Shown piece by piece: positions 11,907 to 58,151 of a stretch of DNA of 64,000 nucleotides (position 1 is the stretch's first letter; every line of letters begins with the position of its first letter). Made by a program: the position numbers and the translations under genes. The notes under the pieces are model-generated. The model searched no databases, had not been told where the DNA came from, and saw only the letters and a program-made list of their open reading frames with translations. Where the stretch lies: NCBI GenBank assembly GCA_002478865.1, contig DLJZ01000022.1:105350-169349 (forward strand), in the 5' to 3' direction. This stretch comes from Hungatella sp. UBA7603 (GTDB lineage Bacteria; Bacillota; Clostridia; Lachnospirales; Lachnospiraceae).

Positions 11907-11944
11907 CAAACGTTAGATATAAAAGTTGTCCTAGACACTTTTAA

Positions 11945-11988
11945 CGCCTCTGCCCCCTCAATCATGAGGGGGCAGAGGCGTTTTCTTT
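11945..11988 (+). terminator. Terminator between pectate lyase and adhesin
   Basis: A perfect 16-bp stem CGCCTCTGCCCCCTCA with loop ATCA, then TTTTCTTT on the plus strand. It ends the pectate lyase transcript and may also block the converging adhesin transcript. Confidence 0.9.
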
Positions 11989-12011
11989 GTGCGATATAAT
12001 AGAAAGTATTG

Positions 12012-15000
12012 TTATTTTTCTCTGCGTGTTTTCAAAAACAGCATAAAAGAAAGTAATAAAGCACTTAGTCCTGCAAATACCAGTAACAGTGCATATATGG
12101 ATTTAAAACTGTTGCTTTCATCTCCAGTCTTTGGCAATCCATCGTTCTTTCCGTATTTTGTTCCTTTCGGAACTTGATTAGAAGTAATAGCGGTTTCTTC
12201 CGGCGTACCTACTTTATTTCCAGTTGGCGTATTAGTAACAATGTTTACCAATGGATCTGGCATTGTCTGTGAGCCATCGCTCTTTGGAACCTTTGGTGAT
12301 TTCACGTCGATATTGCCACCTCCGCTGCTTCCTCCGCCATTGTCAGGTTTTTCAGGGTCTGTCTGCTTCGTATTGGTAAAGGCTGCAATCCTGGTGGTCT
12401 TTGCTTCAATGCTGCCTTCCGCTCCCACACTGACTACCGTATACTTTTCAGCCGAATAGTCTGCTTCCTCTACGTGATAACCTGCGCCAGCAGGCAATCC
12501 AGTGATGGTAATGCTCTGCCCGTGGCTAAGAGATATCTTATCTCCGCTATGAATGATTCCTCCGGTTATACCATTCCCGGTATAGGAATAGGCATCCGGT
12601 GCATTATCAAAGGTTACTGTAAATTCAAATTTCTTTTTTATATCTGCTCCGTTTCCAGAAACAGTTTTACTAATGGTCAAATCTCCAGTGAGCACTTCCA
12701 CTGGAGGAACTGCATTCTTTGTGTTGGTAAAGGAAGCGGTCTGCACAGCATCTGCTTCAATTGTGCCCTGATCTCCTGTACTAACTGTTATATAACCACT
12801 TTCCGTATAATCTGCCTCAGTTACCGTATAATCCGTGTCCCTTGGAAGTCCCTGTATATTAATGCTATCACCATGCCCTAGGGAAATGGTATCACCGCTT
12901 TTTATGGCACCGTTAGGAACGCCGTATCCAACGTAGGAATAAGTTTCTGAGTCATCACGAAAGGTTACAGTAAAATCAAACTTTTTCGCTGTGTCAGCCG
13001 CATTTCCGGCAACGGTTTTCATGATTTTCAAATTTCCCACCGTACCTTCTAATACGTTTTTCACGGTTATGGCATTCGAACCGCTTCCGCTTTTTCCGTT
13101 AATGGAAGAGGTCACCACACCGCCTTCTGTGGAAACTGTCAAGGTATGGGTAACACCTTCCAGGATATAGCCCGTCGGTGCTTTTGTTTCCTTTAAAATA
13201 TAACTGCCATTTGGAATAACCTTGAATTTTAAGGTTCCGTCGCTGGTTGTCATTCCTTTTCGGATTATAGTTTTTCCATCCTGTGCAAAAAGGGTAAATT
13301 CTGCATTTTTCAAAGGGGTACCTGCCATATCGGTTTTGGTAATGGAAATCCAGCCGTTTCTTTGCATGCTTGCCTGACCATCTGCATTTGTGATTTGGTA
13401 GGGTTTGTTGGTTTCTACTCCTTCGGAAGTTCCTCCATACAGCATTACCTTATTGGACACATTTCCAGGCTCTCCTGTTACATCGGTAAGGTAGGAGAAA
13501 CGGTATGCTTTCTTGCTATCTTGTATTGGAAAGGTAAGCCCTCTGGTACCATTGTCATAGAATATGTTTTCTCCTGCCTTTAACAGAACCGCATCTCCCA
13601 GAATGTATGATCCATTTGCTTGAAGGATCATTTCATATGCGGAAAAATTTCCTCCTTCCAGGAGCAGCTCTCCTTTTGCGTTGGTTCTCACATCAATTCC
13701 TATAGGCAGCGTATCATAAAGTTTGGTTGCTGATGTTAAAAATTCTGATGGCTTATATTCCACGGACCAAAGCAATACGCCTGGACTTTTAATACTTGAT
13801 GTTTTCCCCAGCACTTCACTGACGATCGTTACATTCTGAGTACTGGTGACTTCTGGAGATTTTTCCGTGACCATCTTCAAATTATTTTGTACTGTTGTTT
13901 GCTTATTGGAATTAAAATAGTTCTTAACCGTATCTGCATCCGGTCTGGCCTTTATTAGAATCACGTAAGGTCTATCCATGTTCTGGAACGTAAAGGATGC
14001 CGTTCTTCCACTGATTGCGGAGGTAAGTCCTGACACGGTTTCAAGTGCTAAACCAGATGCGGTGACACTTCCATCTGAATTTCCAGTTCCTTCAAAAATC
14101 AGATACTCATTAGAGCCGTCAATCTTGTCAAATACCCAGCCCTCCGGCAAAGTATCAGTAACCGTGGCCGCTCCCATTACTTCTCCCAACCAATTTTTCA
14201 TCTGGGACAGGTTTAAATGATTGGCATTGACATTGAGCCGGAATATAACCGATTTATCCTTGTAATCAAAACCTTCACTGGCATTTCTTGTACGATTATT
14301 GACTCCTGCTGCTGGACTAGATATGGCTTCCCGCTTTAACATTTCCTTTAACAACATCTTGCTGTTGTAACCGGGTCCTGTCGTGGATTCATTCAGCTTT
14401 GCCGTTCCACTAAACAGCGTGGCCGTGTTGTTAATTGTAGTCGATTCGTTTGTGGCAAATATCTTTGGATCTAATACCTGGCTGTCATATGTAAAAGTGC
14501 TGCTTGTAGCACCTGCACCGGTGATAAAGCCAGTGACTTCCAAAAGATCTCCAACCCGCTTTCCTTCCTGAATAATAGGAAGAACCGTTAAACTCAGTCC
14601 AGCCCCAGTAAAGGTGCCATCGATATATTTCATACCGTAACTTACTTTTAAATCTCCGGTTTTTATCCCATCAGGAATTCCGGTCACTGACGAAATGTCA
14701 AATCCGCTTGCTTTGCCTCCATAGACAAGGAGATCATAAACCTTTGGATCAGGAATTGGCTGTTCCTTGGGATCTACCGTCACCTTCCAGGAAACCGTTC
14801 CCTCTGATGGGTTCGCTTTCCCTGATTTTGTAATTGCATTATATCCAATGCCCACGCCGATATTTCCTGACTTGGTACCAGAAGACCCCTGCCATTTGAT
14901 GGATGCCTGGTTGTAATAAGTAATCTTCCCTGTGGTGAGAACATCATCTGGCACCTTTGTAACAATGGTTAGCAGGATTTTGGAATCAATATCACCGATC

Positions 15001-16430
15001 GCATATTCTCCGTTTTGATCCGGAGTAATGGAAACCGCAGTCCCAAAATCAGAGCCATCCCATTTCTGGAGAGTTGCTGAGTCAAAGATAAGTTTTTTTG
15101 CAGAATCAATAATTTCAGGGGAAAGAACATCAGTGATTACCACCTGTTTTAAAGATGCATCCTTGTGGTTGGCTATAATCGTCCAGGTAATGGTTCTGTT
15201 TTTTGGATCATATACGCCCAAACTGCCTTTGTCATTTGTTTCTCCTGACTTTTCAATCCACTTTGGAGTCCAGGAGACTTCTGCCTGACCCTCTTCTTTG
15301 AGAACATCCTCTTTGTCATAGAGACCAGCTTTATTAAGAATCTTCTGTTCCCCAGTTGCTGCAAAATAGAGATCTTCTGGGATTTCTGTTTTAAAGGATA
15401 CCGTCTGTGGTCCCTTCGCTCCTGCGGGGAAAACATACTCAATTCGGCTGTCATTTTCTTCCGGTACTGCAGAGGGATCATCTGTCACTGAAAAGGAACC
15501 TGGAATATAGGTTCCAACATTTTTTAGATCATCCGAGAATTTATATCCCTCTAGATCAATGGCGCCGCCGCCCTGAGTGGCAGTAATCGTTACCTTCCAT
15601 TCCACCCATTTATTTGTTAAATCCAGAGTTCCTATTTTTTCTGCTCCATAAATAATCTTTGCAGGCGGTACGACGACCGTGTAATCTTTATCAAGTATGA
15701 TTACCACCTGCTCGCCGCCTGTTACTGGACTTCCGCTTGAATCAAACTGGAAATCTGCGTGAAACTGGCATTTTACCGTGTTTACCGTTCCGTCAAAAAC
15801 CTCGTCATCTCCATCAAATAGGATTTTGGCAGAGACCATATTGGTATCAGGATCTGTAATGAAGGACACATGCCCAACCAGCACTGCTCCATCTTTTAAC
15901 GGGATCGTAGCTCCTGTAAGGAGCTTAAACGAATTGCTCAGTTCAAAGTATGCCGTATCATTTTTCTTTACCGTTACAGGCGGTGTGGGCTCATCCCCCT
16001 CTACCGGTAAGTCAAAGGAAATGTCTACGGTAATAGGGTCATTGCTGTTTATTTTCCCATCTGCTGGTATAACAACCCCATTTTGCTTCACTACCGCCAG
16101 AAGCTCACCTAAACTATCGGTTATGTCTTCCCCTTCCCCCAATTGTGCAATAGATGGCGTTGCCATGGGGTCACCTGGATTTATTTTATCCGTTGACCCT
16201 GATTTTCCTGCATCGGAAGGGGTTCCTATTCCATGACTGGTATCCCCTTTATCAGAAATCACTGGTTCCCGGTCCGCATCGGACGGTGTTGCCGTGTCCA
16301 TACTGGTTATCTCTCCAGCCGGATCAGTTTCATTGGCAAATACTGTTTGGACCGGCAATAATATATTTAATATAAGAATCAATACCAACATCCCACTTAT
16401 AAACTGCTTTCTTTTTTTTTGTTTCATCAT
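12012..16430 (-). CDS. LPXTG-anchored adhesin-like surface protein with SpaA/DUF5979-type repeats
   Basis: A 1472-residue wall-anchored protein. A signal peptide (~1-33) is followed by a Ser/Thr/Asp/Pro linker with repeated TPSDA motifs, then ~900 residues of collagen-adhesin-like beta domains (for example VSWTPKWIEKSG, KNRTITWTI). A SpaA/Cna-B domain follows (ISITKTDMAGTPLKNAEFTL to LKETKAPTGYIL). Next come two tandem ~100-residue domains of the DUF5979 kind (LKIMKTVAGN... and LTISKTVSGN..., each ending FTNTK), a Pro/Gly linker, LPKTG at 1432-1436, a hydrophobic helix and KTRREK. Sortase should attach it to peptidoglycan. No sortase or pilin genes lie nearby. The ligand is unknown. The GGAGG ribosome site could serve either of two adjacent ATGs. 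Confidence 0.9.
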   Translation of the reverse strand: MMKQKKRKQFISGMLVLILILNILLPVQTVFANETDPAGEITSMDTATPSDADREPVISDKGDTSHGIGTPSDAGKSGSTDKINPGDPMATPSIAQLGEGEDITDSLGELLAVVKQNGVVIPADGKINSNDPITVDISFDLPVEGDEPTPPVTVKKNDTAYFELSNSFKLLTGATIPLKDGAVLVGHVSFITDPDTNMVSAKILFDGDDEVFDGTVNTVKCQFHADFQFDSSGSPVTGGEQVVIILDKDYTVVVPPAKIIYGAEKIGTLDLTNKWVEWKVTITATQGGGAIDLEGYKFSDDLKNVGTYIPGSFSVTDDPSAVPEENDSRIEYVFPAGAKGPQTVSFKTEIPEDLYFAATGEQKILNKAGLYDKEDVLKEEGQAEVSWTPKWIEKSGETNDKGSLGVYDPKNRTITWTIIANHKDASLKQVVITDVLSPEIIDSAKKLIFDSATLQKWDGSDFGTAVSITPDQNGEYAIGDIDSKILLTIVTKVPDDVLTTGKITYYNQASIKWQGSSGTKSGNIGVGIGYNAITKSGKANPSEGTVSWKVTVDPKEQPIPDPKVYDLLVYGGKASGFDISSVTGIPDGIKTGDLKVSYGMKYIDGTFTGAGLSLTVLPIIQEGKRVGDLLEVTGFITGAGATSSTFTYDSQVLDPKIFATNESTTINNTATLFSGTAKLNESTTGPGYNSKMLLKEMLKREAISSPAAGVNNRTRNASEGFDYKDKSVIFRLNVNANHLNLSQMKNWLGEVMGAATVTDTLPEGWVFDKIDGSNEYLIFEGTGNSDGSVTASGLALETVSGLTSAISGRTASFTFQNMDRPYVILIKARPDADTVKNYFNSNKQTTVQNNLKMVTEKSPEVTSTQNVTIVSEVLGKTSSIKSPGVLLWSVEYKPSEFLTSATKLYDTLPIGIDVRTNAKGELLLEGGNFSAYEMILQANGSYILGDAVLLKAGENIFYDNGTRGLTFPIQDSKKAYRFSYLTDVTGEPGNVSNKVMLYGGTSEGVETNKPYQITNADGQASMQRNGWISITKTDMAGTPLKNAEFTLFAQDGKTIIRKGMTTSDGTLKFKVIPNGSYILKETKAPTGYILEGVTHTLTVSTEGGVVTSSINGKSGSGSNAITVKNVLEGTVGNLKIMKTVAGNAADTAKKFDFTVTFRDDSETYSYVGYGVPNGAIKSGDTISLGHGDSINIQGLPRDTDYTVTEADYTESGYITVSTGDQGTIEADAVQTASFTNTKNAVPPVEVLTGDLTISKTVSGNGADIKKKFEFTVTFDNAPDAYSYTGNGITGGIIHSGDKISLSHGQSITITGLPAGAGYHVEEADYSAEKYTVVSVGAEGSIEAKTTRIAAFTNTKQTDPEKPDNGGGSSGGGNIDVKSPKVPKSDGSQTMPDPLVNIVTNTPTGNKVGTPEETAITSNQVPKGTKYGKNDGLPKTGDESNSFKSIYALLLVFAGLSALLLSFMLFLKTRREK

Positions 16431-16460
16431 ATTATCCTCCTTTTCTAAGCTTTTCCACGC

Positions 16461-16482
16461 ATTTTAAGCGGTTGCTTAAAAT
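16461..16482. promoter_or_regulatory. Inverted repeat in adhesin 5' leader (operator candidate)
   Basis: ATTTTAAGC-GGTT-GCTTAAAAT is a perfect 9-bp inverted repeat with a 4-nt loop. It begins ~12 nt downstream of the adhesin -10 box, so it lies in the first transcribed bases. It could be an operator for the divergent putative regulator or an mRNA hairpin; there is no T run that would make it a terminator. Confidence 0.6.
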
Positions 16483-16494
16483 CGCTAGTATCTC

Positions 16495-16522
16495 TATATA
16501 TAGTGATTTTTTATTGTTTCAA
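16495..16522 (-). promoter_or_regulatory. Promoter of the adhesin gene
   Basis: Minus strand: TTGAAA (16522-16517), 16-nt spacer, TATATA (16500-16495), with the inverted repeat 16461-16482 immediately downstream. Confidence 0.65.
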
Positions 16523-16601
16523 CTTACGAAAAAACCCTATAAATAATTATAACTGGAAGAAGAAGGAGGTGCTTGAAAAATAAAGAAAATAAGGTTACAA
16601 T

Positions 16602-18077
16602 ATGATATACGATTTAGAAAAAACGTGTAACTTTTTTCCCATTTTAAGAAAGAACAGGAAGATCAGAATGAGACTTGGCTTATTACTTGAAGCGCTTATT
16701 GATATTGCACAAACGGCTAAAACAGATTTCGCAATTAGTATGAACATGACGCCCAGCGGCTTAAGCAAGATTCTGAAAGGAGGCAGGCTCCCTTTTATCA
16801 AGGAAAAAAGAGCCTTTAGTAGACGGGCATCCGCTTACTTTGCAGATTCCCTTTACAGCTACCACTGCTATTTTAAGTTTCTCCCTCTTTTTCCGGTGAT
16901 CTATGATTTTAGCTCCAAATATGAACTGGAAATGTTTCTCTCCTGTGCTTTAGAATACGCACTGGACAAAGATTTTGAATATGAGAATGACGGAAGACCT
17001 GTTCTTTCAGACCGGGAAGCAAGCTTTCTGGGGAAGAAAAATATTTTAAACTTGTTCTGCGTCCTTGTTTCAGACCATATAACCAGTGGGAACGAGATAC
17101 CTCTGGAATTTTACAGTGCCCTGCCGCTATGCGATCATCTTTATTATGATATCTTCCATAGAATCAAAATAGCGAATACGCGAAAACCGGAGAATATACT
17201 CTTTAATCACTTCTTCAACATATCTTGTCTGGAATCGTCAAGCACGGATTATAATTTAGGAACCCTGGCAGCCATCGCTAGAGCAGAGAAGTATTTAGAT
17301 CTAAATTTATTGGAGATCACTGAGGAAATCGGTAACCCATTTTTACTGTTGAGAGGACAGTTTCTCATGGTTTTCAGCATTCAGCTTGATGGAACTCCTC
17401 TCATGACATTTATCAAACAAAAAAGCTATCTCACTACTTTTTACAATTCCCTTATTCGGAAAAAAACCAGAAAAATTAGTTATGACGGAAAGGACGCGAG
17501 AGCTGCTCTAGCTAATGATCCTTCCCTTCTTTTTCGCTTAACCAACGGATCTATTGATGCTGTCTATAATTTTATTTCCATCGGCTATCTAATTCATGAG
17601 GAAGAGATGAAAGACATTCACAGCGATGAAGTTATTAAAAAAACGATTCTCGAATTATTTCACAGGGTACTGACAGATGATACGGATTTTTATGTCAACA
17701 TTGATGCCATGATTGGATTCCAATCCAGTGGTCATGCCATCATCCCTCTTGTTGGTACCGTGAATATTCCTCTGGAGGAACGCATTCCTTACCTAAAAAG
17801 ATTTGATTCCTATATTTATAAAGATAATGTGAGCCGAATCCGAATCGTTAACAGTGAACTTCCAAAGGTTGCGGTGCTCTGTTCCAAGGGGATGAGCCTT
17901 ATTTATCTCACCGATAACGATTCTGAAAAAATCCTTTATTTTCGGACGGATATGATCAACAATAATTTAAAAAAAGAGATTGCAGATAACAACATGAAGT
18001 TAATGGACTTCAGCGTTGACTTATGGAACAACTTTCTAGAGGAAATGTCGAAAGATCTTCGTAATGTTGACTACTAA
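16602..18077 (+). CDS. Unrecognised protein with N-terminal HTH-like region, divergent from adhesin
   Basis: I do not recognise this 491-residue cytosolic protein. Residues ~25-65 (LLLEALIDIAQTAKTDFAIS, then MNMTPSGLSKILKGGRLP) read like a helix-turn-helix in which TPSGLSKILKG would be the recognition helix. The rest is helical and lacks obvious catalytic motifs. It is divergently placed 171 bp from the adhesin, with an inverted repeat between them, which suggests a dedicated transcriptional regulator; this is inference. The start is uncertain: ATG 16602 has a weak site, while ATG at residue 23 has AGGA at 8 nt and would still keep the HTH. The bidirectional terminator 18095-18141 follows. 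Confidence 0.7.
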   Translation: MIYDLEKTCNFFPILRKNRKIRMRLGLLLEALIDIAQTAKTDFAISMNMTPSGLSKILKGGRLPFIKEKRAFSRRASAYFADSLYSYHCYFKFLPLFPVIYDFSSKYELEMFLSCALEYALDKDFEYENDGRPVLSDREASFLGKKNILNLFCVLVSDHITSGNEIPLEFYSALPLCDHLYYDIFHRIKIANTRKPENILFNHFFNISCLESSSTDYNLGTLAAIARAEKYLDLNLLEITEEIGNPFLLLRGQFLMVFSIQLDGTPLMTFIKQKSYLTTFYNSLIRKKTRKISYDGKDARAALANDPSLLFRLTNGSIDAVYNFISIGYLIHEEEMKDIHSDEVIKKTILELFHRVLTDDTDFYVNIDAMIGFQSSGHAIIPLVGTVNIPLEERIPYLKRFDSYIYKDNVSRIRIVNSELPKVAVLCSKGMSLIYLTDNDSEKILYFRTDMINNNLKKEIADNNMKLMDFSVDLWNNFLEEMSKDLRNVDY

Positions 18078-18094
18078 GATACGTAAATCCATTA

Positions 18095-18141
18095 AAAACA
18101 CCAAAAATCTCCGGATATGACCGAGAAATTTTTGGTGTTTT
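18095..18141. terminator. Bidirectional terminator
   Basis: An imperfect stem AACACCAAAAATCTCCGG / CCGAGAAATTTTTGGTGTT with A and T runs on both sides, between converging genes ending at 18077 and 18144. Confidence 0.8.
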
Positions 18142-18143
18142 CT

Positions 18144-20396
18144 TTATTCTATCACCACCAAGCCATTTTTATCTCCAAGGGTCTCATAAGACCAATTTTC
18201 ATTTCCCCCCTCCACATGAAGGAAGATGGCGTCGCCCTCTCTCCTTGCTTTAGCCGTCATAACGATATTTCCGTCCAAATCTGTAACTGATGTACTCCCT
18301 TTCACTCCGTCCTCAAACACGGACAAATACAAGGTCACTCCATTGCTGTAATCATAATCTGGCCTGTCATCACAGACACCCATTGCCAGTATCGAATTGG
18401 GCCTTACTAAAAGTGGCATGGTGAAAAAGTCATGATGCTCTTTCTGCCATCCTCCTCCCTCAATGAACTGACCAGTCAAAAGGTTATACCATTTGCCCGC
18501 CGGAAGATAGTAATCCACTTCTCCACTTTCCTTAAAAACAGGTGCTATGAGCAGAGAATCTCCCATCATATACTGCTTATCCAGAGTATCACACCCACGG
18601 TCTTCTGGAAATTCCACAAACATGGGCCGCATCATTGGGATGCCCTCCTCATGAGACAGCACTGCCTGGCGGTAAAGGTAAGGCATGAGACGGCATTTTA
18701 ACTTCACAAATTTGCGTAATACTTCACATGCCTCATCGTCAAACATCCACGGCACCCGGTAGGAAGAAGATCCATGAAGACGACTGTGGGAACTCATTAG
18801 TCCAAACTGGCACCATCTCTTATAAACATCCGCAGAAGCAGTGCTTTCAAATCCGCTGATGTCGTGGCTCCAGAATCCAAAGCCTGCACAGGCAAGAGAC
18901 AAACCGCTGCGCAGGGTTTCCGCCATGGAAGGATAATTTGCAGAGCAGTCTCCTCCCCAGTGAACAGGAAATTTTTGTGACCCTACGGTTGCAGAACGGG
19001 CAAACAATATAGCCTCTCCCACGCCTCGCTCCTTTTCCAAAAGTTCAAACGCTGCCTGATTATAAAGATAGGTATAGTAATTATGCATTTTCACCGGATC
19101 AGAACCATCAAAATAAGCAATATCCTTAACCGGAATCCTTTCGCCAAAATCCGTCTTGAAGCAATCTACTCCCATATTAAGAAGTGTCTTTAACTTTCCC
19201 TGATACCAGGAAACAGCATCTCGATTAGTAAAATCCACCAGCCCCATTCCTGCCTGCCATAGGTCTGTCTGCCAGACATCTCCATTGTTTTTCTTTAACA
19301 GATAACCTTGTTTCATTCCTTCCGCAAAAAGTGGTGACTTTTGGGCGATATAAGGATTAATCCATACACAGATTTTAAGCCCCCTGTCATGGTAGCGCTT
19401 TAGCATTTCTTTGGGATCGGGAAACGTCTTTTGATCCCAGGTAAAGTTACACCATTCATAAGCCTCCATCCAAAAGCAATCAAAGTGAAACACATGGAGC
19501 GGAATGTCACGGTCTGCCATTCCTTTAATAAAGCTTGATGTAGTTGCTTCATCGTAATCCGTGGTAAAAGATGTACTCAGCCAGAGCCCAAACGACCAAG
19601 CTGGAGGCAACGCCGGTTTTCCAGTCAGTTCTGTATATGTTTGAATGGTCCCCTTTGGAGTTCCACCATTAATCACATAATAGTCAAGGCGTTCTCCTTC
19701 TACGGAAAACTGAACCCGTTCCACCTTTTCACTGGCAATTTCAAAGGATGCATCCCCTTCATTGTCTAAAAGGATGCCATAACCTTTATTGGTAATATAA
19801 AAGGGAACATTTTTATATGCGATTTCGCTGGCAGTCCCCCCGTCTTCATTCCACATATCAACCATCTGGCCGTTCTTAACAAATGGTGTAAACCGTTCTC
19901 CTAAGCCATACACAAACTCATCTACATCAAGTGCCAACTGCTCTACCATAAAACGGCGCCCTGAGTCTCCATTTGACATACAGGCCATATTGTGAAATCC
20001 TGTGTTCGTCAGCTTCCGGTCCCCATCATAGAAACAAATCCCCCAGGAATTCGGCCTCTTATCTATTACAGCCTTAGTTTCACCAGTCCTGTAAATGATT
20101 TCTTCCTCCGTCTCTTCAATGTGAATGGCTGGATTCTCGTCGGTTATTTCTGCAAATGGTCCCTTGTACTGCGTTCCTTCAAAATGACTGACAGAGACCT
20201 TGATCACATTTTCCATCGGACTTGACAGGCGTACCGTTAACATCCCAAGATTTAGACAATCTCCTCTTTTTTCTATATGCTTAGCCGGGGCATACACCGT
20301 TAAGCTGTTTTCCTCTATTTTGCTGTCCCCATATTCTATTGCGTATAGTGGCGTGATCTCATCACGTATCTGCCAGTACCCCTTCGTAAACTTCAT
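18144..20396 (-). CDS. yicI: GH31 alpha-xylosidase (YicI-type)
   Basis: A 750-residue intracellular glycoside hydrolase family 31 enzyme that releases alpha-xylosyl residues, for example from isoprimeverose or xyloglucan fragments. The nucleophile Asp416 lies in FKTDFGERIP and the acid/base Asp483 in HWGGDCSANYPSMAE; both nearly coincide with E. coli YicI numbering as remembered, and the ERIP extension is typical of xylosidases within GH31. There is no signal peptide. ATG at 20396 follows GGGAAAGGGGAAG; the in-frame upstream codons lack a site. It lies downstream of a sugar ABC transporter on the same strand, so imported xylosides are the likely substrate. A closely related alpha-glucosidase activity cannot be excluded. 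Confidence 0.9.
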   Translation of the reverse strand: MKFTKGYWQIRDEITPLYAIEYGDSKIEENSLTVYAPAKHIEKRGDCLNLGMLTVRLSSPMENVIKVSVSHFEGTQYKGPFAEITDENPAIHIEETEEEIIYRTGETKAVIDKRPNSWGICFYDGDRKLTNTGFHNMACMSNGDSGRRFMVEQLALDVDEFVYGLGERFTPFVKNGQMVDMWNEDGGTASEIAYKNVPFYITNKGYGILLDNEGDASFEIASEKVERVQFSVEGERLDYYVINGGTPKGTIQTYTELTGKPALPPAWSFGLWLSTSFTTDYDEATTSSFIKGMADRDIPLHVFHFDCFWMEAYEWCNFTWDQKTFPDPKEMLKRYHDRGLKICVWINPYIAQKSPLFAEGMKQGYLLKKNNGDVWQTDLWQAGMGLVDFTNRDAVSWYQGKLKTLLNMGVDCFKTDFGERIPVKDIAYFDGSDPVKMHNYYTYLYNQAAFELLEKERGVGEAILFARSATVGSQKFPVHWGGDCSANYPSMAETLRSGLSLACAGFGFWSHDISGFESTASADVYKRWCQFGLMSSHSRLHGSSSYRVPWMFDDEACEVLRKFVKLKCRLMPYLYRQAVLSHEEGIPMMRPMFVEFPEDRGCDTLDKQYMMGDSLLIAPVFKESGEVDYYLPAGKWYNLLTGQFIEGGGWQKEHHDFFTMPLLVRPNSILAMGVCDDRPDYDYSNGVTLYLSVFEDGVKGSTSVTDLDGNIVMTAKARREGDAIFLHVEGGNENWSYETLGDKNGLVVIE

Positions 20397-50919: not shown

Positions 50920-51055
50920 GGTTTAAAGTTTTTCCAATCGTAAAAGTACCTCTCGATCATTCTTCTCTGATAAAATATCTAATGATCTTTCACAAATACC
51001 AATATACCTACTCCCCCCTATTAAAACAGTGATAGGACGACTTTACCTTTTACAT

Positions 51056-51095
51056 TAAAAACGCCTGGGAGTAATATGACACTACCCCCAGACGT
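51056..51095 (-). terminator. Terminator of the hyp operon
   Basis: Minus strand: ACGTCTGGGGGTA / TACTCCCAGGCGT imperfect stem followed by TTTTT, ending the five-gene operon. Confidence 0.7.
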
Positions 51096-51108
51096 AAAAG
51101 AAACTTCT

Positions 51109-52161
51109 TTACTCCGCCAAAACCTTAATCTCTTTGTATTTCTTATGATCCGAATAAAGTTCCCCTGTGTAAGGATTTTTCTTCGTCTTAATAATTCTAT
51201 ATACCATATATCCAAACACCAAGACATTTGCAAGGAGAGCTAATAAGCTCATGAAAAACATAAATGTGGTATTGGGAGAAGCCCCTGCTACCTGATAGAT
51301 CCCTGCACCAGTCATTACAGTATATCCATCGGAAGCCAAAAGCCCTTCCTTAATAGCTGCCTCTGCAATGGCCTTACTAGATCCAGAATGCACCAGAAAA
51401 CGGCTGGCATCCTGAAATGCGGGGAAGGTCTGAGCAAACATGCACCAAAGCGCCAGTGTCTGAGCACGATGCTGAAGCCACGCTCCCTTACCTAATGTAA
51501 AGGCACAAATTGTTGGAGCAAGTAAAAGCGCAAACCCGCAGTACCATGCATGGGTTGGAAGACAGTTATAAGTATAAGCAAAGTTCCATAGATCATATGC
51601 AATGATCCAAAACCACATCATATCTGGCCAAAGCATATCCTGACTTTTGTCCTTACTAGTTCTCTTGCGGATACAGATACCAAACCATCCGGTGATGGTG
51701 ACAATGTTTAAAAGACCAGCAATTCCATTCATCACATTCCACGGTCCGCCTATGTAATACTGAACCTGATTGTTCATGTATTCCATGACCGGAGTCACAT
51801 ACTGGGAAACCTCAAAATCCCTAATACAAGCCTCCATAATGTTAACGGCTAAAATGAGAGGCGGAAAACAAAGGGCAATTTTATTATGACGCAGTTTCTT
51901 AATATGACGGATACACCAAAAACCAATACAGCCAGCTGTAGAAGAATAAACCTTAGCCAGATGAAACCAATCCATATAGGAAGTATCCCTTAAAACAGTG
52001 AGCCAGACAAACGTTAAGATAATCGGCAATACAACAAAGCATACAAACCCCACCCATTTAAATCGACGGCTTACTTCATTTGCTGCAAACAGAGAGATAA
52101 ACACTCCAATCCAAACCAGTAAAACCAATATTGCAGGAACACCTTCTGTAAATACAAACAT
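51109..52161 (-). CDS. Polytopic membrane protein (DUF5692-like)
   Basis: A 350-residue protein with about eight transmembrane helices and short loops; it resembles proteins labelled DUF5692, by memory. Conserved-looking motifs between helices include DLWNFAYTYNCLPTHAWYCG and LQHRAQTLALWCMFAQTFP, rich in His, Trp and Cys, which could bind metal or quinone. The C-terminal tail is basic. It ends a tightly spaced operon with hypA, hypB and an Fe-S flavoprotein (15 nt from hypA), so a transport or redox role tied to them is plausible but unproven. Confidence 0.8.
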   Translation of the reverse strand: MFVFTEGVPAILVLLVWIGVFISLFAANEVSRRFKWVGFVCFVVLPIILTFVWLTVLRDTSYMDWFHLAKVYSSTAGCIGFWCIRHIKKLRHNKIALCFPPLILAVNIMEACIRDFEVSQYVTPVMEYMNNQVQYYIGGPWNVMNGIAGLLNIVTITGWFGICIRKRTSKDKSQDMLWPDMMWFWIIAYDLWNFAYTYNCLPTHAWYCGFALLLAPTICAFTLGKGAWLQHRAQTLALWCMFAQTFPAFQDASRFLVHSGSSKAIAEAAIKEGLLASDGYTVMTGAGIYQVAGASPNTTFMFFMSLLALLANVLVFGYMVYRIIKTKKNPYTGELYSDHKKYKEIKVLAE

Positions 52162-52176
52162 ACTTAATCCTCCTTA

Positions 52177-52521
52177 TTAACAAGCTTCTATTTCTTTGAT
52201 ATTAAATTCATTCCCCGTTTTCAGATATGTGGTTCCACTTCCGCAATGGGGACATGTCTTTTTATATTTCACTGTGGAATACGTCCGATTGCAATCCTCA
52301 CAAATTGTCACAGCCGGAATCATAAAAATCTTTAAATCTGCTTCCTTTAAAAGCTCAGATTTTACCCGAAAATACTTCCAACAGTCCGTTAGATAATCAG
52401 GAATAACACCGCTAACTTCCCCAAGCTCCAGCGTAAGAGAGGACACATTTGTAAGCTGTTCCTCTATTGAGATGTCTTCAATCATCCTGACAATGTGAGT
52501 CACCAATCCCAGTTCATGCAT
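52177..52521 (-). CDS. hypA: Nickel metallochaperone HypA
   Basis: Delivers nickel during maturation of [NiFe]-hydrogenase or other Ni enzymes. The 114-residue protein has the N-terminal Ni-binding MHE and the structural zinc site of two CxxC pairs (CEDCNRTYSTVKYKKTCPHC). It lies 27 nt after the flavoprotein gene and 15 nt before the DUF5692-like gene. No hydrogenase structural gene or hypCDEF is in the window, so its client must lie elsewhere or be an unusual enzyme. Confidence 0.95.
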   Translation of the reverse strand: MHELGLVTHIVRMIEDISIEEQLTNVSSLTLELGEVSGVIPDYLTDCWKYFRVKSELLKEADLKIFMIPAVTICEDCNRTYSTVKYKKTCPHCGSGTTYLKTGNEFNIKEIEAC

Positions 52522-52548
52522 GATTGCACCTTCTTTTCTTCCCAGCTC

Positions 52549-54561
52549 TTACACAGATCTGTTTTTGTTTCGAATAATCTTAATCTGCCTTTTTAAAGCA
52601 TAGGGCAATACCATTTTCATCTTATCCTCACTCTTAACCATTCTACTTGCCTCCGGCAATTCCCGGAATAAACTTATGGCATCAAATTCGCACTTAGTGG
52701 TGCAGACGCCACAGCCAATACAGCGATTTGGATCCACTACAGAAGCCCCGCAGCTTAGACATCTGGCAGTCTCAGCCTTAACCTGCTCCTCGGTAAATGG
52801 CAACCTTACATCATGAAAGGTAGTTGTTGGATCAATCCCAGTTACCCGGTCCGCTTCTTGTCGATCAAAACCACTTACCATCTCATTTGGAATCACCAAG
52901 TTCTCCTTATGAAGCTCTATAAACTCCCTGCGATTTCTTCCAATGGTAAGGCTCTGTCCATCATGGACAAATCGATGAATGGAAATGGCCCCTTCTTTAC
53001 CTGCTGCAATGGCATCAATGGCAAATCTTGGCCCAGTAAATACATCACCTCCCACAAATACATCCGGTTGCTCTGTCTGATAGGTCAATGAATCTGCTTC
53101 GGCACGGTCCCCACGTGCCAGTTGAACCTTACTTCCATCTAATAAGTCCCCCCAGATGATGCTCTGACCAATGCTAACTATAACCGTTTCGCATTCCAAG
53201 GTCATACGCTCATTCTCATCATACTGTGGCTGAAAACATCCCTCACTGTTTGTCACAGAGATACACTTTTTAAATATGACTCTTTTCACTAACCCATCTT
53301 CTGATTGAATTTCACATGGCCCCCAGCTATTATGAATTTCAATTCCTTCTTCCAAAGCCTCATCCACTTCTTCTTTGGCCGCTGGCATCATCAAACGGTC
53401 TTCCAAGCAATACATGGATACCGAAGATGAACCTGCGCGGATGGCACTGCGAGCCACATCAACTGCCACATTTCCGCCCCCAATCACCACCGTGCGTCCT
53501 TGTAAATGAATGTCATCTTTGCTATTAACCATATGTAAAAATTCTACTCCCGTATGCACACCAGGCGCTTCTTCTCCTGAAATTCCCGCCTTTCTTCCGC
53601 CCTGACAACCAATGGCAAGATAAAACGCCTTAAAATCATTTCTGCGAAGCTCATCAAGAGTTATATCCCTGCCAACCTCTACGCCACACTGAAACTCAAC
53701 CCCCATTTGACGCAGCACATCGATTTCCGCCTCTACTACATCTTTTTCCAGTCGAAACGTTGGAATACCATAGGAAAGCATTCCCCCAGGTTTTTCATTC
53801 TTTTCAAATACTGTAACCGGATATCCTTTCTGCGCCAGGAAGAACGCACACGTTAGCCCTGCCGGCCCAGCTCCAATTACAGCCACCTTTTCAGTATATG
53901 GCTTACCAATCTGATTGACCATTGGCGGTATATACCGGTTCTCTTTAATAAGCTCCTGCATTGCAATAAACTTTTTAACCTCATCAATGGCTACTGCCTG
54001 GTCAATGGTTCCCCTGGTACAAGCCTCCTCACATCTTCGGTTGCAAATGCTGCCGCAAACCGCAGGAAACGGATTGTCTTTTTTTATGAGCTTTAAGGCA
54101 TCCTGATAACGCCCCTGGGAAGCCATCTTAAGATATCCCTGGACACCAATATGAGCCGGACATTTTGTTTTACAAGGAGCCGTGCCAGTATCATAACAAT
54201 TGATCTGATTGTCATCCCTGTAATTCTCATTCCATTTTTCAGGTCCCCATTTCACTGTATCTGGAAGCTCCTGTTTTTTATATGCCACAGGACCTTCTTT
54301 GGTGCATAGCTTTTGACCAAGCTTTACCGCACCCGAAGGACAATACTCCACACACTGGCCGCAGGCCACACATTTATCCGTTTCCACCTTAGCAATGTAA
54401 GCAGACCGGGACATATTTGGTGTATTAAACAATTGGGAGGTTCGAAGCGCATAACAGGAACAAACACAGCAATTGCAAATAGCAAAAATCTTATCCTCTC
54501 CATCAATATTGGTAATTTGATGAACCAGCCCATTGTCCTCTGCTCTTTTAAGAATCTCCAT
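52549..54561 (-). CDS. Fe-S/FAD NAD(P)H oxidoreductase (GltD-like), probably the C-terminal part of a split protein
   Basis: A 670-residue flavoprotein. A cysteine motif CNCCVCSCYALRT near 28 is followed by a 4Fe-4S site CVACGQCVEYCPSG near 60, then the GltD-type Fe-S domain (CPAHIGVQGYLKMASQGRYQ to CNRRCEEACTRG), an FAD loop VAVIGAGPAGLTCAFFL, an NAD(P) loop VVIGGGNVAVDVARSA and a C-terminal ferredoxin site CIGCGVCTTKCEFD. It should pass electrons between NAD(P)H and ferredoxin-like partners. The start has only AAAGG 2 nt upstream, and the frame is continuous with the previous gene across one TAA, so it may be the larger piece of one ~900-residue protein. It is encoded between hypB and hypA. 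Confidence 0.85.
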   Translation of the reverse strand: MEILKRAEDNGLVHQITNIDGEDKIFAICNCCVCSCYALRTSQLFNTPNMSRSAYIAKVETDKCVACGQCVEYCPSGAVKLGQKLCTKEGPVAYKKQELPDTVKWGPEKWNENYRDDNQINCYDTGTAPCKTKCPAHIGVQGYLKMASQGRYQDALKLIKKDNPFPAVCGSICNRRCEEACTRGTIDQAVAIDEVKKFIAMQELIKENRYIPPMVNQIGKPYTEKVAVIGAGPAGLTCAFFLAQKGYPVTVFEKNEKPGGMLSYGIPTFRLEKDVVEAEIDVLRQMGVEFQCGVEVGRDITLDELRRNDFKAFYLAIGCQGGRKAGISGEEAPGVHTGVEFLHMVNSKDDIHLQGRTVVIGGGNVAVDVARSAIRAGSSSVSMYCLEDRLMMPAAKEEVDEALEEGIEIHNSWGPCEIQSEDGLVKRVIFKKCISVTNSEGCFQPQYDENERMTLECETVIVSIGQSIIWGDLLDGSKVQLARGDRAEADSLTYQTEQPDVFVGGDVFTGPRFAIDAIAAGKEGAISIHRFVHDGQSLTIGRNRREFIELHKENLVIPNEMVSGFDRQEADRVTGIDPTTTFHDVRLPFTEEQVKAETARCLSCGASVVDPNRCIGCGVCTTKCEFDAISLFRELPEASRMVKSEDKMKMVLPYALKRQIKIIRNKNRSV

Positions 54562-54570
54562 GACCTTTGC

Positions 54571-55257
54571 TTAATCAATATAACGGGCTTTGTTTGTCTC
54601 CACCAGATAATCCGCCATATCACCAACACCAATGCACATCTCATCCTCTAGATGACCACACCCTTCCCCTTGTAACCTGCGGGATCGGCGACAGGAACAG
54701 GCTCCCACTGCATATCTCCCCTTATATTTCTCAATCCAATGGGAAAGATGTTCTATGCTTAACGATTTTTGCTCCGTAGGTATTGCCTTTTCAACCGGAA
54801 TCACGTGCATTCCTATTCCTGCTCCTCCCAGTGGAACCATTGGGGTGACCTTTTCTAACGGAAGGCGGGACATATCATTAAATAATTTAGCAACTTCCGG
54901 ATGAGCCTCCGCATGTTCCTTATTCATATTTATAAATTCCCCACACCCCGGTACAAACATAGGAAGAATATATTGCTTCTGACGACTTGAGTTCTCCCAG
55001 TTATACTCAATCAATCCAATAACGCTCATTTTCTGAAGCAGTTCTTCCGTTCTTTTTAACTCTTTTTTACATTTCCGAGCTACATCTTTGGCAAACATAG
55101 GCTTACGTACCTTCATAGCCAGTGCGACCTCTGCCATCTCATCCGTGATACTTCCAGCGAGTCCCCAGTACTCCGCATCTTCCACAGTCACCTTATGTCC
55201 AATACGGTCAGTAATCTTCTGACCCAATTTTAAAATTAACGTTCTCCCCTCTGCCAT
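54571..55257 (-). CDS. Winged-helix/4Fe-4S protein, probably the N-terminal part of the split oxidoreductase
   Basis: A 228-residue protein with an N-terminal winged-helix-like part (TDEMAEVALAMKVRKPMFAK, then LLQKMSVIGLIEYNWEN). A cysteine cluster CSCRRSRRLQGEGCGHLEDE, then C at 212, fits a 4Fe-4S motif found in larger dicluster ferredoxins. In those single-chain relatives the segment continues as ALEILKRAEDNG and then a CNCC motif, exactly what begins the next gene. Here the frame ends at TAA 54573-54571, and the downstream frame reads on in phase. AGGAGAAGAAG precedes the ATG, 27 nt after hypB. Alternatively the two genes may be a natural split. Confidence 0.8.
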   Translation of the reverse strand: MAEGRTLILKLGQKITDRIGHKVTVEDAEYWGLAGSITDEMAEVALAMKVRKPMFAKDVARKCKKELKRTEELLQKMSVIGLIEYNWENSSRQKQYILPMFVPGCGEFINMNKEHAEAHPEVAKLFNDMSRLPLEKVTPMVPLGGAGIGMHVIPVEKAIPTEQKSLSIEHLSHWIEKYKGRYAVGACSCRRSRRLQGEGCGHLEDEMCIGVGDMADYLVETNKARYID

Positions 55258-55284
55258 CTTCTTCTCCTTTTCCCCCTAAAATTA

Positions 55285-55953
55285 TTACTGCTGCCATTCT
55301 CTCACTTCTTTACTTAGCCAATGCACCCATTCTTCTATTCCCTCCCCTGTACGGGCCGAAATGGGAATAATTATGGCGTTAGGGTTTCTTTTTAAGATAT
55401 AAGATTCACACGCTTCCAAATCAAATTCAAAGTAAGGAAGAACATCAATTTTGTTAATTAGAACGACATCGCAAATGGTAAACATCAGTGGATATTTTAA
55501 TGGCTTATCATGACCTTCCGGTACACTTAAAATCATGACATTTTTCACTGCCCCAGTATCAAACTCTGCCGGGCAGACCAGATTCCCTACATTCTCAAGG
55601 ATTGCCAGATCCAGACCATCTGCCTCTAAACCTTTTAGCCCCTGCCGGGTCATCTCCGTATCCAAGTGGCACATTCCACCAGTATGAAGTTGAATCGTCT
55701 TAACGCCAAGCTCCGAGATGCTGCGGGCGTCTACATCTGAGTCGATGTCTGCCTCCATAACTCCTATGGAAAGCTTTTCTTGTAAGCATCTAATTGTTTT
55801 TTTCAGTGTCGTTGTTTTACCAGCGCCTGGCGAAGACATCAGATTTAACAAAAAAAGCTTTTTTGTTTTTAACTCTTTTCTTAATTCATCAGCCCTACGG
55901 TCATTGTCCGCAAAAATGCTCTGTTTCACTTCCAGAACTCTAAATTCCCCCAT
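55285..55953 (-). CDS. hypB: Hydrogenase nickel incorporation GTPase HypB
   Basis: A 222-residue GTPase that drives nickel insertion together with HypA. The P-loop is MSSPGAGKTTTLKK; the metal site uses Cys-His in TGGMCHLDTE and Cys in NVGNLVCPAEFD; switch and base motifs VLINKIDVLPYFEFD follow. It lacks an N-terminal His-rich store. ATG 55953 follows GGGGG at 8 nt, whereas the frame extends upstream through the promoter. First gene of the operon, directly behind a consensus promoter and a GntR-type operator. Confidence 0.95.
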   Translation of the reverse strand: MGEFRVLEVKQSIFADNDRRADELRKELKTKKLFLLNLMSSPGAGKTTTLKKTIRCLQEKLSIGVMEADIDSDVDARSISELGVKTIQLHTGGMCHLDTEMTRQGLKGLEADGLDLAILENVGNLVCPAEFDTGAVKNVMILSVPEGHDKPLKYPLMFTICDVVLINKIDVLPYFEFDLEACESYILKRNPNAIIIPISARTGEGIEEWVHWLSKEVREWQQ

Positions 55954-55982
55954 TGCTGTATCCCCCTCTTTCGAAAATTCTC

Positions 55983-55993
55983 TGGCTATACCA
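55983..55993 (-). promoter_or_regulatory. GntR-type operator in the hyp operon leader
   Basis: Minus strand TGGTATAGCCA differs at one position from TGGTATAACCA at 56125-56135. It fits the FadR-subfamily consensus TNGTNNNACNA with one mismatch and lies ~20 nt downstream of the hyp -10 box. Confidence 0.65.
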
Positions 55994-56013
55994 CAATATG
56001 TTATGATTTTAAC

Positions 56014-56042
56014 ATTATACCTTTTTGCACAAATCAAGTCAA
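56014..56042 (-). promoter_or_regulatory. Promoter of the hyp operon
   Basis: Minus strand: TTGACT (56042-56037), 17-nt spacer, TATAAT (56019-56014). An inverted repeat ATGTTA/TAACAT (55999-56016) overlaps the -10 box. Confidence 0.8.
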
Positions 56043-56081
56043 CTTTACTCCTTATTTCTATACATTTTATTAACAATTATC

Positions 56082-56110
56082 TTGATTTTTAGGAATATTT
56101 AAGTTAAAAT
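56082..56110 (+). promoter_or_regulatory. Promoter of the GntR regulator
   Basis: TTGATT (56082-56087), 17-nt spacer, TAAAAT (56105-56110), 45 nt before the ATG at 56155. Confidence 0.7.
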
Positions 56111-56124
56111 AGTCATATGGTATC

Positions 56125-56135
56125 TGGTATAACCA
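56125..56135. promoter_or_regulatory. GntR-type operator in the regulator leader
   Basis: TGGTATAACCA, flanked by C and G to make a 13-bp palindrome CTGGT-ATA-ACCAG, exactly fits the FadR-subfamily consensus TNGTNNNACNA. It lies downstream of the -10 box, so the regulator should repress its own gene. Confidence 0.75.
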
Positions 56136-56154
56136 GTTCCAGGGAGGGTTTTAT

Positions 56155-56865
56155 ATGGAATTTACAAAAATAACAGCACCATCGCTGAAAGATTTGTTTG
56201 TACAACAAATAGAAGAAAAGATTTTATCTGGTCAACTTCCAGTCGGATGTAAGATGCCACCGGAACGTGAGATGGCAGAACAGATGAAAGTAAGCCGAGC
56301 AGTTGTAAACGGTGGAATCAATGAATTAAAAAGAAAAGGTTTCTTAGAAGTACTGCCCCGACAGGGAACATACGTTGCCGATTTCAGCAGAAACGGCAAT
56401 CTGCAAACCTTGATTGCCTTATTAGAATACCGTGGTAACAAACTGGACAAAGCTGGAATAAGGGCCATTTTGGAAATACGAACTGCCCTGGAACAACTTG
56501 CCGTCGGCCTGGTTATTGATTCTGCCTCCGCAGAAGATATTAACCAACTTGAATTAACTGCAAAAAAACTCAAAAGTACTGACTCCATACAAAAGGCTGC
56601 TCAGATTGCCTTTCAATATCACCATGACCTTGCCTACTATGCTGGTAATACGGTACTGACTCTGATTTACTCATCCTTTAAAGAAGTTTGCATCGTATTA
56701 TGGGTTCGCTTCTGTAAGCTATATGGCATCCAGGCTCTCTACGGGCATATCATTCATCTGCAGAGACTTCTAAACAACCGGGATAAGGAAGGCGCTAATC
56801 AATGGATTCAGCACTATCTGACAGAAACCATTGAGGGCTCTCAGCAAATTTATGAGGAGTCATGA
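56155..56865 (+). CDS. FadR-subfamily GntR transcriptional regulator
   Basis: A 236-residue regulator. Residues 1-75 hold a GntR winged HTH (GCKMPPEREMAEQMKVSRAV, then GGINELKRKGFLEVLPRQGTY). Residues ~95-230 form an all-helical FCD-like ligand domain (LEIRTALEQLAVGLV, YHHDLAYYAGN) that in relatives binds metal and a carboxylate or other small effector. GGGAGGG lies 6 nt before the ATG. It is divergent from the hyp operon, and near-identical operators lie in both leaders, so it very likely represses both until an effector, not known, is present. Confidence 0.92.
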   Translation: MEFTKITAPSLKDLFVQQIEEKILSGQLPVGCKMPPEREMAEQMKVSRAVVNGGINELKRKGFLEVLPRQGTYVADFSRNGNLQTLIALLEYRGNKLDKAGIRAILEIRTALEQLAVGLVIDSASAEDINQLELTAKKLKSTDSIQKAAQIAFQYHHDLAYYAGNTVLTLIYSSFKEVCIVLWVRFCKLYGIQALYGHIIHLQRLLNNRDKEGANQWIQHYLTETIEGSQQIYEES

Positions 56866-57351: not shown

Positions 57352-57936
57352 TTATTTTTTTACTACACTGGTATTTTTTGCAGCTACCTTCTTATGCCCT
57401 TTTGCAACTGTCTTACGAACCTTTCCAGTATGCTTTTTATTTGATTTTACTACCTTTGCCTTATGAGCCTTATTAGCAGTTGTCTTTTTATGCTTTTTCG
57501 CAGTGGATTTCTTATTTGTCTTTTTTGTTGCTGCCTTCTTCGTTGTTTTTTTTGCACTCTTTTTCGTTACTGCTGCCTTAGCTGCTTCTGTTGTCTTAGT
57601 TGCCTCTGTAGTCTTTGCTGCCGCAGTTGTCTTTGCTGCTTCTGTTGTCTTTGCTGCTTCTGTTGTCTTTGCTGCAGTTGTCTTTGCTGCCTCTGTAGTT
57701 TTTACTGCCGCCGCTGTTTTAGCTGCCTCTGTCGATTTCACTGTTTCCTTCTTAGCTGCTTGTGTTGTCTTAGGTGTATTTGACTTACCCTTCTGTGTCG
57801 TAGAAACACTACTGCTTTCTACCTTCTTACTCTGGCTAGAGACTGACTGTGCTGCTTGAGCCGGAACCGTTAAACTTCCTGTAATAAGCATAGCTGTAAC
57901 CAATAGGGAGGTGATTGATTTAAATGATTTTTTCAT
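57352..57936 (-). CDS. Secreted Lys/Ala/Thr-rich repeat protein
   Basis: A 194-residue protein with a Sec signal peptide (MKKSFKSITSLLVTAMLITG to PAQA, cleaved near 30). The mature chain is low-complexity and strongly basic: a central run of AAKTTE heptads (21-bp units) from ~75 to 130, then a Lys-rich tail with KKTTKKAATKKTNKK and HKK motifs resembling histone H1 tails. It may bind anionic wall polymers, DNA or teichoic acid; this is inference from charge. ATG at 57936 follows AAAAGGAGAAC. Unit number could vary between strains. Confidence 0.82.
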   Translation of the reverse strand: MKKSFKSITSLLVTAMLITGSLTVPAQAAQSVSSQSKKVESSSVSTTQKGKSNTPKTTQAAKKETVKSTEAAKTAAAVKTTEAAKTTAAKTTEAAKTTEAAKTTAAAKTTEATKTTEAAKAAVTKKSAKKTTKKAATKKTNKKSTAKKHKKTTANKAHKAKVVKSNKKHTGKVRKTVAKGHKKVAAKNTSVVKK

Positions 57937-58151
57937 AATAAGTTCTCCTTTTCTATGTTGGAATTTTCTACTGAGTGAAATCATTCCTGTTATGCCAGTT
58001 ACGCAACCATTGATTTCCTTCTCTGTTTCAAAGAATACTACCATTCCTGTACGCATTGCAAAGGTGAAACTATGGCAAAACTGTGGCAGCTATATCAATT
58101 AATAAATTAAAATGATAAAATATACAAAACAACCGAAAGGAAGAGTTACCA

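Follow-up and report, generated by a model that had tools for sequence, protein, structure and literature searches.

Genes for HypB, a flavoprotein, HypA and a DUF5692 membrane protein form one tight minus-strand cluster in the window (the whole 64,000-nucleotide stretch that was analysed), with intergenic gaps of 15, 27, 9 and 27 nucleotides counted upward from the DUF5692 gene. hypB (positions 55285 to 55953) encodes 222 amino acids from its ATG, and its ORF reaches 56076 if counted from a TTG start. The flavoprotein gene, which is isrA-like, appears as a 5' part of 228 codons (54574 to 55257; 54571 to 55257 with its stop) and a 3' part with an ORF of 670 amino acids (52549 to 54561). Next come hypA (52177 to 52521, 114 amino acids) and the DUF5692 gene (51109 to 52161, 350 amino acids), whose product scores over the PF18948 cut-off at 409 bits. 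A divergent plus-strand gene (56155 to 56865) encodes a 236-amino-acid GntR/FCD regulator (PF00392, PF07729), and a GntR gene is found beside related operons in many loci. This arrangement had been proposed in a sequence-only reading of the locus and is borne out, as are a promoter-like sequence and a terminator of the operon's own. A sigma-70-like promoter, TTGACT-17-TATAAT, lies upstream of hypB on the minus strand (56014 to 56042) and has 11 of 12 matches; the scan gave 15 promoter-like sites, compared with 13.5 in shuffled sequences. The Rho-independent terminator, 3' of the DUF5692 gene on the same strand (51061 to 51095), consists of a 16-pair stem and then a T run. The region from 51035 to 51110 folds at -24.9 kcal/mol (z -5.2), and because the two terminator-like sites in the scan do not exceed the 4.4 in shuffles, the evidence for the terminator is the fold, not the count.

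A perfect palindrome, CTGGTATAACCAG, is located upstream of gntR (56124 to 56136) and is a candidate GntR operator. It is the only TGGTNNNACCA in the 64 kb. Weaker copies precede hypB and the second operon of this kind in the genome. The copy before hypB, CTGGCTATACCAC, lies between the hypB promoter and the hypB start (55982 to 55994) and has two mismatches to the palindrome; the same letters are present in related locus L035, and loci L036 to L038 carry the perfect palindrome before hypB. Within the window, four sites match at two mismatches or fewer, where 1.18 are expected (3 of 100 shuffles have as many). With at most one mismatch, CTGGTNNNACCAG occurs ahead of the GntR gene in 14 of 17 related regions, and the corresponding gaps of L043 and L047 contain no site better than two mismatches. 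The whole genome has 11 CTGGTNNNACCAG sites, against two for the reversed control. These do not define a wider regulon: of the 10 examined, nine fall within called ORFs and the other is the site in the window. In FCD-type GntR regulators that bind metal, the metal site has a conserved His triad. H157 is the sole invariant histidine among 13 aligned GntR rows, so the triad is not conserved and nickel sensing by this regulator was dropped.

Both Hyp proteins are recognizable from curated models. HypB scores 238.6 bits with TIGR00073, where the curated cut-off is 121.2, and HypA scores 103 bits with PF01155, where it is 28.9, and carries the N-terminal MHE and two CxxC motifs. In these respects the pair resembles the hypABCDEF maturation system. 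It differs in that HypA reaches 71.4 bits with TIGR00100, under the curated cut-off of 88.1, and in that neither HypD (PF01924) nor a NiFe large subunit (PF00374) is matched in the host genome, which is 67.9% complete. This agrees with the earlier claim that no hydrogenase accompanies these genes, within the limits of an incomplete genome. The genome does contain a second, intact hypB-isrA-hypA operon.

The flavoprotein gene is a single 902-codon frame with one in-frame TAA at codon 229 (54571 to 54573, minus strand), which is a sense codon in relatives. The oxidoreductase "in two pieces" of the sequence-only reading is therefore two ORFs, but not two genes. The 5' part has a winged-helix-like N-terminus and three invariant cysteines, and the 3' part has the other three together with Pfam domains Fer4, Fer4_20, an FAD/NAD(P)H domain (Pyr_redox_2) and a second Fer4 stretch. 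The TAA thus divides six cysteines, C187, C189, C208, C261, C263 and C268, into two triplets. These residues are invariant in all 12 full-length rows and all 35 N-domains aligned. The six-cysteine part of the predicted structure is of low confidence, and a PDB search with it gave no match. The best 25 NCBIfam matches of the flavoprotein all score below their curated cut-offs. Its C-terminal part, with Fer4_20 and a pyridine-nucleotide-disulphide domain, is like NfnB/GltD-like NAD(P)H oxidoreductases, although these do not share the N-terminal six-cysteine domain or the Hyp partners.

A closer resemblance is to IsrA, the putative isoprene reductase with HypA and HypB partners described by Kronen et al. 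2023 (PMC10134865) from Acetobacterium wieringae ISORED-2. According to that paper, isoprene upregulates the isr operon, the host is reported to be without a NiFe hydrogenase, and HypA and HypB adjoin 73% and 56%, respectively, of 988 IsrA homologues. DUF5692 is a frequent neighbour of the same homologues (0.40), and a TetR regulator occurs near them at 0.21. The window frame shares with the published description a length of about 900 amino acids, the Fer4, Fer4_20 and FAD/NAD(P)H domains, an extra C-terminal Fer4, and a cluster of six cysteines, two CxC motifs among them, that falls before residue 270. It also shares HypA and HypB in the operon, with no hydrogenase dependence in the published account. 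This likeness to the A. wieringae protein (VUZ27132.1) is one of described features. As described, the isr operon has five genes, including two hypA genes and a 4Fe-4S ferredoxin (ENOG4105DQ9), and no DUF5692. In contrast, the window has one hypA, DUF5692, a GntR/FCD regulator and a premature stop, and no second hypA or separate ferredoxin gene lies between 51109 and 56076. The earlier view that no named system has this composition cannot stand, since the 2023 paper (PMC10134865) describes the isr set and already draws the same inference about HypA and HypB for the IsrA family. The locus belongs to this known kind of system, in which the reaction is a putative one.

IsrA-type proteins (clade 9) are single chains of about 900 amino acids, which the window copy, with its stop at codon 229 of 902, does not encode. 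Judged by its intact orthologues, the window gene appears to be a broken member of the IsrA family, and because the stop falls inside the six-cysteine domain, the gene is probably inactive here or its loss is recent. The frame is unbroken in same-genus orthologues, in relatives at 98, 94 and 86% identity, and over the matched stretch in 79 of 80 named loci (71 + 8). A sequencing or assembly error that hides a fully intact operon is somewhat unlikely, yet it deserves consideration: the TAA is the single lesion in 902 codons, the assembly is incomplete, and an intact protein with 98% identity to the window frame represents a 90% cluster with 30 member sequences. However, the gene is damaged in other ways in near relatives, which makes a real loss plausible. 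In the sister genome G007, large deletions have removed most of isrA1 and kept the neighbouring genes, and in P0065 isrA reads out of frame.

The stop might also be natural, with the two ORFs yielding a working two-subunit enzyme, but we regard this as improbable. An ATG occurs 9 nucleotides past the TAA with an AAAGG stretch close upstream, and both halves of the frame are open and conserved. The idea gains weight from a distant relative, L122, in which the linker that joins the cysteine triplets is likewise cut, by a single in-frame TAG about 13 codons past the position of the window's stop. On the other hand, the cut lies between the two halves of the six-cysteine site, close relatives and nearly all named loci are unbroken, and the lesions in G007 and P0065 look like decay.

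The sequence-only reading had proposed a search of genomes for co-occurrence of these genes, which we carried out for HypB, IsrA and DUF5692 among 341 Clostridia-class genomes. HypB is present in all 28 genomes with a strong IsrA match, and in 27 of them the two are no more than about 5 kb apart; DUF5692 is present in 18 of the 28. Where no NiFe match is found, HypB occurs in 18 of 18 genomes with IsrA, compared with 1 of 272 without it. In this sample, 47 of the 48 genomes with HypB have a NiFe match or IsrA. Among 48 loci having 6 kb on both sides, nine have neither hypA nor hypB near isrA. The proposal that HypA and HypB serve a client tied to the flavoprotein and not a hydrogenase is thus supported by the pairing of HypB with IsrA, whereas its other suggestion, DUF5692 as the client, fits less well, because HypB is present in all 10 of the IsrA genomes that are without DUF5692.

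DUF5692 could nevertheless be a nickel client or nickel permease with IsrA only its redox partner, an explanation we consider slightly less probable still than a natural split. His, Cys and Asp residues are fully or almost fully conserved across its family. DUF5692 persists together with hypA and GntR in G004 and G017, two genomes where no IsrA-type match is found, and in G007 DUF5692 is intact after the isrA1 deletion, with hypA and GntR also kept. The AF2 model of the DUF5692 protein (pLDDT 89.5) has nine helices of at least 15 residues, and a PDB search with it gave no match at E<=0.001. DUF5692 occurs in 22 of the 341 genomes, with IsrA in 18 of these. None of the other four has HypB over the cut-off, which is a weak argument against DUF5692 as the client since three of the matches (G169, G228 and G348) are at contig ends and the fourth (G324) is marginal, with an E-value of 1e-4. 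On the IsrA tree, DUF5692 (27 of 72 rows, by a label that misses copies beyond 6 kb or past contig ends) requires 19 changes, compared with 22.0 when shuffled (51 of 500 shuffles are as low), and its presence is therefore scattered. Row L122 of this tree, a long branch, stands for another isrA copy, encoded on the opposite strand. That HypA and HypB serve a [NiFe]-hydrogenase encoded elsewhere, with the flavoprotein an unrelated neighbour, is very unlikely: a hydrogenase could be missing from a genome of this completeness, and the same-genus genome G016 does have an Ech-type NiFe locus, but that locus carries its own separate hypA, hypB, hypD, hypF and hypE-like genes (hypA and hypB being 29% and 45% identical to the isr-type genes), and neither the proximity of HypB to IsrA nor the 18 IsrA genomes with HypB and no NiFe match would be expected.

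The 80 named isrA loci come from Butyrivibrio proteoclasticus, several other Butyrivibrio, a Roseburia hominis MAG, Pseudobutyrivibrio, Collinsella and Treponema, among other hosts. Where antisense ORFs overlap them, the ORF caller discards small genes such as hypA, and in nine of these loci it did not call the matched isrA, so neighbour counts rest on tblastn and those nine loci were read directly. When 517 neighbour ORFs were clustered, the largest cluster covered nine loci, and its three tested members are ABC-transporter ATPases. Fifteen of 18 neighbour proteins searched against Pfam (8 + 10) have a family, and these families include a peptidase, GGDEF/EAL, topoisomerase, CodY, ABC transporter parts, MatE and a chemotaxis receptor. 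No recurring substrate gene or plausible partner from which to guess the substrate is found among these 18 proteins, which are a small part of the 517 ORFs, so that a rare partner may exist.

HypA and HypB are usually taken to indicate a hydrogenase or a urease. We think it probable, with appreciable doubt, that the window instead contains an isr-type operon in which HypA and HypB load nickel into IsrA-type ene-reductases and DUF5692 is an optional membrane partner. In the IsrA-like enzyme, NAD(P)H would supply electrons that pass via FAD and four [4Fe-4S] sites to the N-terminal six-cysteine site. This site may hold a nickel-iron-sulfur centre and hydrogenate a C=C bond in a substrate that is lipophilic or conjugated. 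IsrA would have HypB and HypA as its private nickel-insertion pair, and DUF5692, as a guess, might bring the substrate or dock the enzyme at the membrane. The GntR protein would recognize CTGGTNNNACCAG-like sites at the two promoters, and its targets would probably include the region before the second, intact isrA operon. In the open-licence literature, our searches turned up no nickel measurement on any IsrA, and PMC10134865 calls the question open.

A more speculative extension, which we would give only a small chance, is that the IsrA-type proteins of animal gut and rumen bacteria form a large family of nickel-dependent ene-reductases. They might saturate the double bonds of fatty acids or of other alkenes from the diet, with DUF5692 presenting a membrane-dissolved substrate, and provide a second route beside conjugated-linoleic-acid reductase. 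We rate this extension lower because a gene for that reductase has already been reported from Butyrivibrio fibrisolvens (Fukuda 2007, as listed among the references of PMC4478896). Because HypB is accompanied by a NiFe match or IsrA in nearly every HypB genome of the sample, and by IsrA with no NiFe match in 18 genomes, IsrA stands as a strong candidate nickel enzyme beyond those on the known list, and the HypB-IsrA pairing offers a cheap rule by which hypAB pairs can be annotated. Should IsrA homologues prove to hydrogenate alkenes or fatty acids, an anaerobic chemistry whose cofactor is still open would be accounted for by a nickel-fed flavoprotein.

The genes at 51109-56865 of the window were confirmed as listed by the sequence-only reading, and the operon is real. 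On the minus strand are hypB (55285-55953), a flavoprotein gene read as two parts (N piece, 54571-55257; C piece, 52549-54561), hypA (52177-52521) and a gene for a DUF5692 protein (51109-52161), with 27, 9, 27 and 15 nt between successive coding pieces from hypB downward. A promoter with 11/12 matches lies upstream of hypB, a terminator is found downstream of the DUF5692 gene, and a GntR/FCD gene is divergently oriented on the plus strand (56155-56865). Near the latter, a 234-amino-acid low-complexity protein rich in Ala, Lys and Thr is encoded on the minus strand (57352-58056).

The flavoprotein has the same architecture as IsrA, the putative isoprene reductase of Acetobacterium wieringae, whose isr operon shows raised expression with isoprene (Kronen et al. 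2023, PMC10134865). Its C part contains Fer4, Fer4_20, an FAD/NAD(P)H domain and a second Fer4 (Pfam), and its N part matches no Pfam family over cut-off. Six N-domain cysteines (C187, C189, C208, C261, C263 and C268) are invariant both among 12 aligned full-length relatives and among 35 aligned N-domains; the Cys6 "cluster V" of IsrA is a candidate nickel site (PMC10134865). According to the same paper, of 988 IsrA homologues 73% have HypA and 56% have HypB nearby, and neighbourhood co-occurrence is 0.40 for DUF5692 and 0.21 for TetR. Because Kronen et al. describe this architecture together with HypA, HypB and DUF5692 neighbours, the earlier claim of a composition unmatched by any named system is incorrect; the system was already published in kind in 2023.

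The two flavoprotein pieces are in fact one gene. Positions 52552-55257 form a single 902-codon frame (stop read as X) with a sole in-frame TAA at codon 229, which falls between C187/C189/C208 and C261/C263/C268. Orthologues are unbroken in three genomes of the same genus (G016, G021 and G024; 85-86% identity), and the protein database holds an unbroken 902-amino-acid protein at 98% identity, the representative of 30 sequences clustered at 90%, and a further unbroken protein at 94%. The window TAA may be genuine or may stem from an assembly error. In close relatives of the window lineage, isrA looks to be decaying: a locus ~94% identical in DNA (G007) is missing the isrA equivalents of about 52686-53008, 53502-55047 and 55140-55246 and yet retains hypB, hypA, DUF5692 and GntR, and protein P0065, which matches 63% of the N piece at 94% identity, goes out of frame inside the cysteine region.

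Among the best 80 of 563 loci, the isrA frame is unbroken over the match in 79. The exception, L122, is a distant homologue in an Oscillospiraceae MAG, where one in-frame TAG (6330-6332) is the sole interruption of an 895-codon match; L122 also has a second isrA copy, on the opposite strand. This TAG lies ~13 codons past the window TAA position, in the same linker between cysteine triplets, which may be coincidence or a hint of a tolerated split. Another homologue (L135, in G242) has an in-frame TAA at about 4054-4056, ~70 codons into the N-domain match and upstream of the six-cysteine motif. In G023 (L052 and L051, contig C1), whose single-contig assembly is 89% complete and 6% contaminated, isrA and DUF5692 are each split into several frames, perhaps by sequencing errors.

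One set of 341 Clostridia-class genomes was searched for the IsrA N-domain, the NiFe large subunit profile PF00374, the HypB profile TIGR00073 and DUF5692. Strong IsrA matches (E<1e-60) occur in 28 genomes; there were 30 matches at E<=0.001, and weak ones in G260 and G214 were excluded. HypB exceeds its cut-off in 48 of the 341: every one of the 28 IsrA genomes, plus 20 more, 19 of which have a PF00374 match and one of which (G336) does not. PF00374 is matched in 10 of the 28 IsrA genomes. Where there is no NiFe match, HypB is present in 18/18 IsrA genomes versus 1/272 IsrA-less genomes (Fisher p about 1e-27, overstated because the genomes are related). HypB resides on the IsrA contig, within about 5 kb, in 27/28 cases, and on a different contig in G312. 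Of the 51 PF00374 matches, three score under the curated cut-off; many are short, Ech/NuoD-like matches, and part of these may belong to proteins other than hydrogenases; HypB over cut-off is absent from 22 of 41 NiFe-only genomes. The HypB-IsrA association is genome-wide and independent of hydrogenase. The earlier proposal of nickel delivery tied to the flavoprotein was thus partly right, in that HypB tracks this protein without a NiFe match, though not as a new system.

The window genome, which is 67.9% complete, yielded no PF00374 or HypD match. The Ech-type locus of G016 comes with its own hypA, hypB, hypD, hypF and hypE-like AIRS gene; compared with the isr-type proteins, the HypB encoded there is 45% identical and the HypA 29%. 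Genomes with a hydrogenase can thus carry a separate set of hyp genes for it.

Within 6 kb of isrA, the best 80 of 563 loci have hypA in 61, hypB in 48, DUF5692 in 30 and GntR in 17; for those with 6 kb or more of sequence on each flank, the counts are 39/48, 30/48, 18/48 and 10/48. Record titles for these 80 name many gut or rumen Lachnospiraceae, Oscillospiraceae and Erysipelotrichaceae as hosts, and some Collinsella and Treponema. In L045 (G001, contig C9), the isrA 3' part and hypA occur three times in tandem (9033-18869). The tandem stretches are 100% identical (2390 and 1959 bp); as the self-match is interrupted between one stretch and the next, the repeat may be an artefact of assembly.

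DUF5692 is loosely coupled to isrA. Of the 341 genomes, 22 encode it, and 18 of these also have IsrA; within the genus it is present in 23 of 25 genomes. G004 and G017 have DUF5692, hypA and GntR, and their best isrA match is confined to the GltD-like part (36-37% identity), which counts against a strict partnership. Loci L049, L050 and L137 (in G003, G017 and G004) carry DUF5692-hypA with a divergent GntR, and isrA and hypB do not adjoin; in L049 the next gene encodes an iron-containing alcohol dehydrogenase. In G011 and G014, DUF5692 is 85-87% identical to that of the window beside an isrA only 52% identical, so the same membrane protein accompanies both enzyme types. Its predicted model is a confident bundle with no clear PDB relative, and in open-licence literature DUF5692 is named by PMC10134865 alone. 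We infer a membrane role with a lipophilic substrate.

The window genome also has a second hypB-isrA-hypA operon, whose unbroken IsrA (896 amino acids) is 52% identical to the first and which neither DUF5692 nor GntR adjoins. The stretch between gntR and hypB holds a perfect palindrome, CTGGTATAACCAG, at 56124-56136; a weaker version with two mismatches sits at 55982-55994, between the hypB promoter and hypB start. Among 17 related GntR upstream regions, 11 contain the core TGGTNNNACCA, 8 of these as full CTGGTNNNACCAG; at one mismatch or fewer, CTGGTNNNACCAG is found in 14 of the 17, and the best matches in L043, L046 and L047 have two mismatches. Two one-mismatch sites are upstream of the second operon in both the window genome and G007. 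Genome-wide, the full 13-mer has 11 matches versus 2 for a reversed control; the nine sites read besides the window site all fall within ORFs. The simplest reading of these sequences is that one GntR would regulate both operons through this candidate operator.

Butyrivibrios are described as the predominant rumen biohydrogenating organisms (PMC4478896), which motivates, without proving, the bold and rather improbable reading that nickel-dependent IsrA-type enzymes hydrogenate unsaturated fatty acids or dietary alkenes, with DUF5692 presenting such substrates to them. A CLA-reductase gene has already been sequenced from Butyrivibrio fibrisolvens (reference list of PMC4478896). In one Butyrivibrio branch of IsrA (L100, L101, L104 and L105), no hypA or hypB gene lies within 6 kb.

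New here are the in-frame stop that breaks isrA and the gene's apparent decay in the window lineage, the six invariant cysteines established over a wide sample, the candidate GntR operator common to both operons, the loose coupling of DUF5692, and a hydrogenase-independent HypB-IsrA link at the whole-genome level, which extends the published neighbourhood argument.
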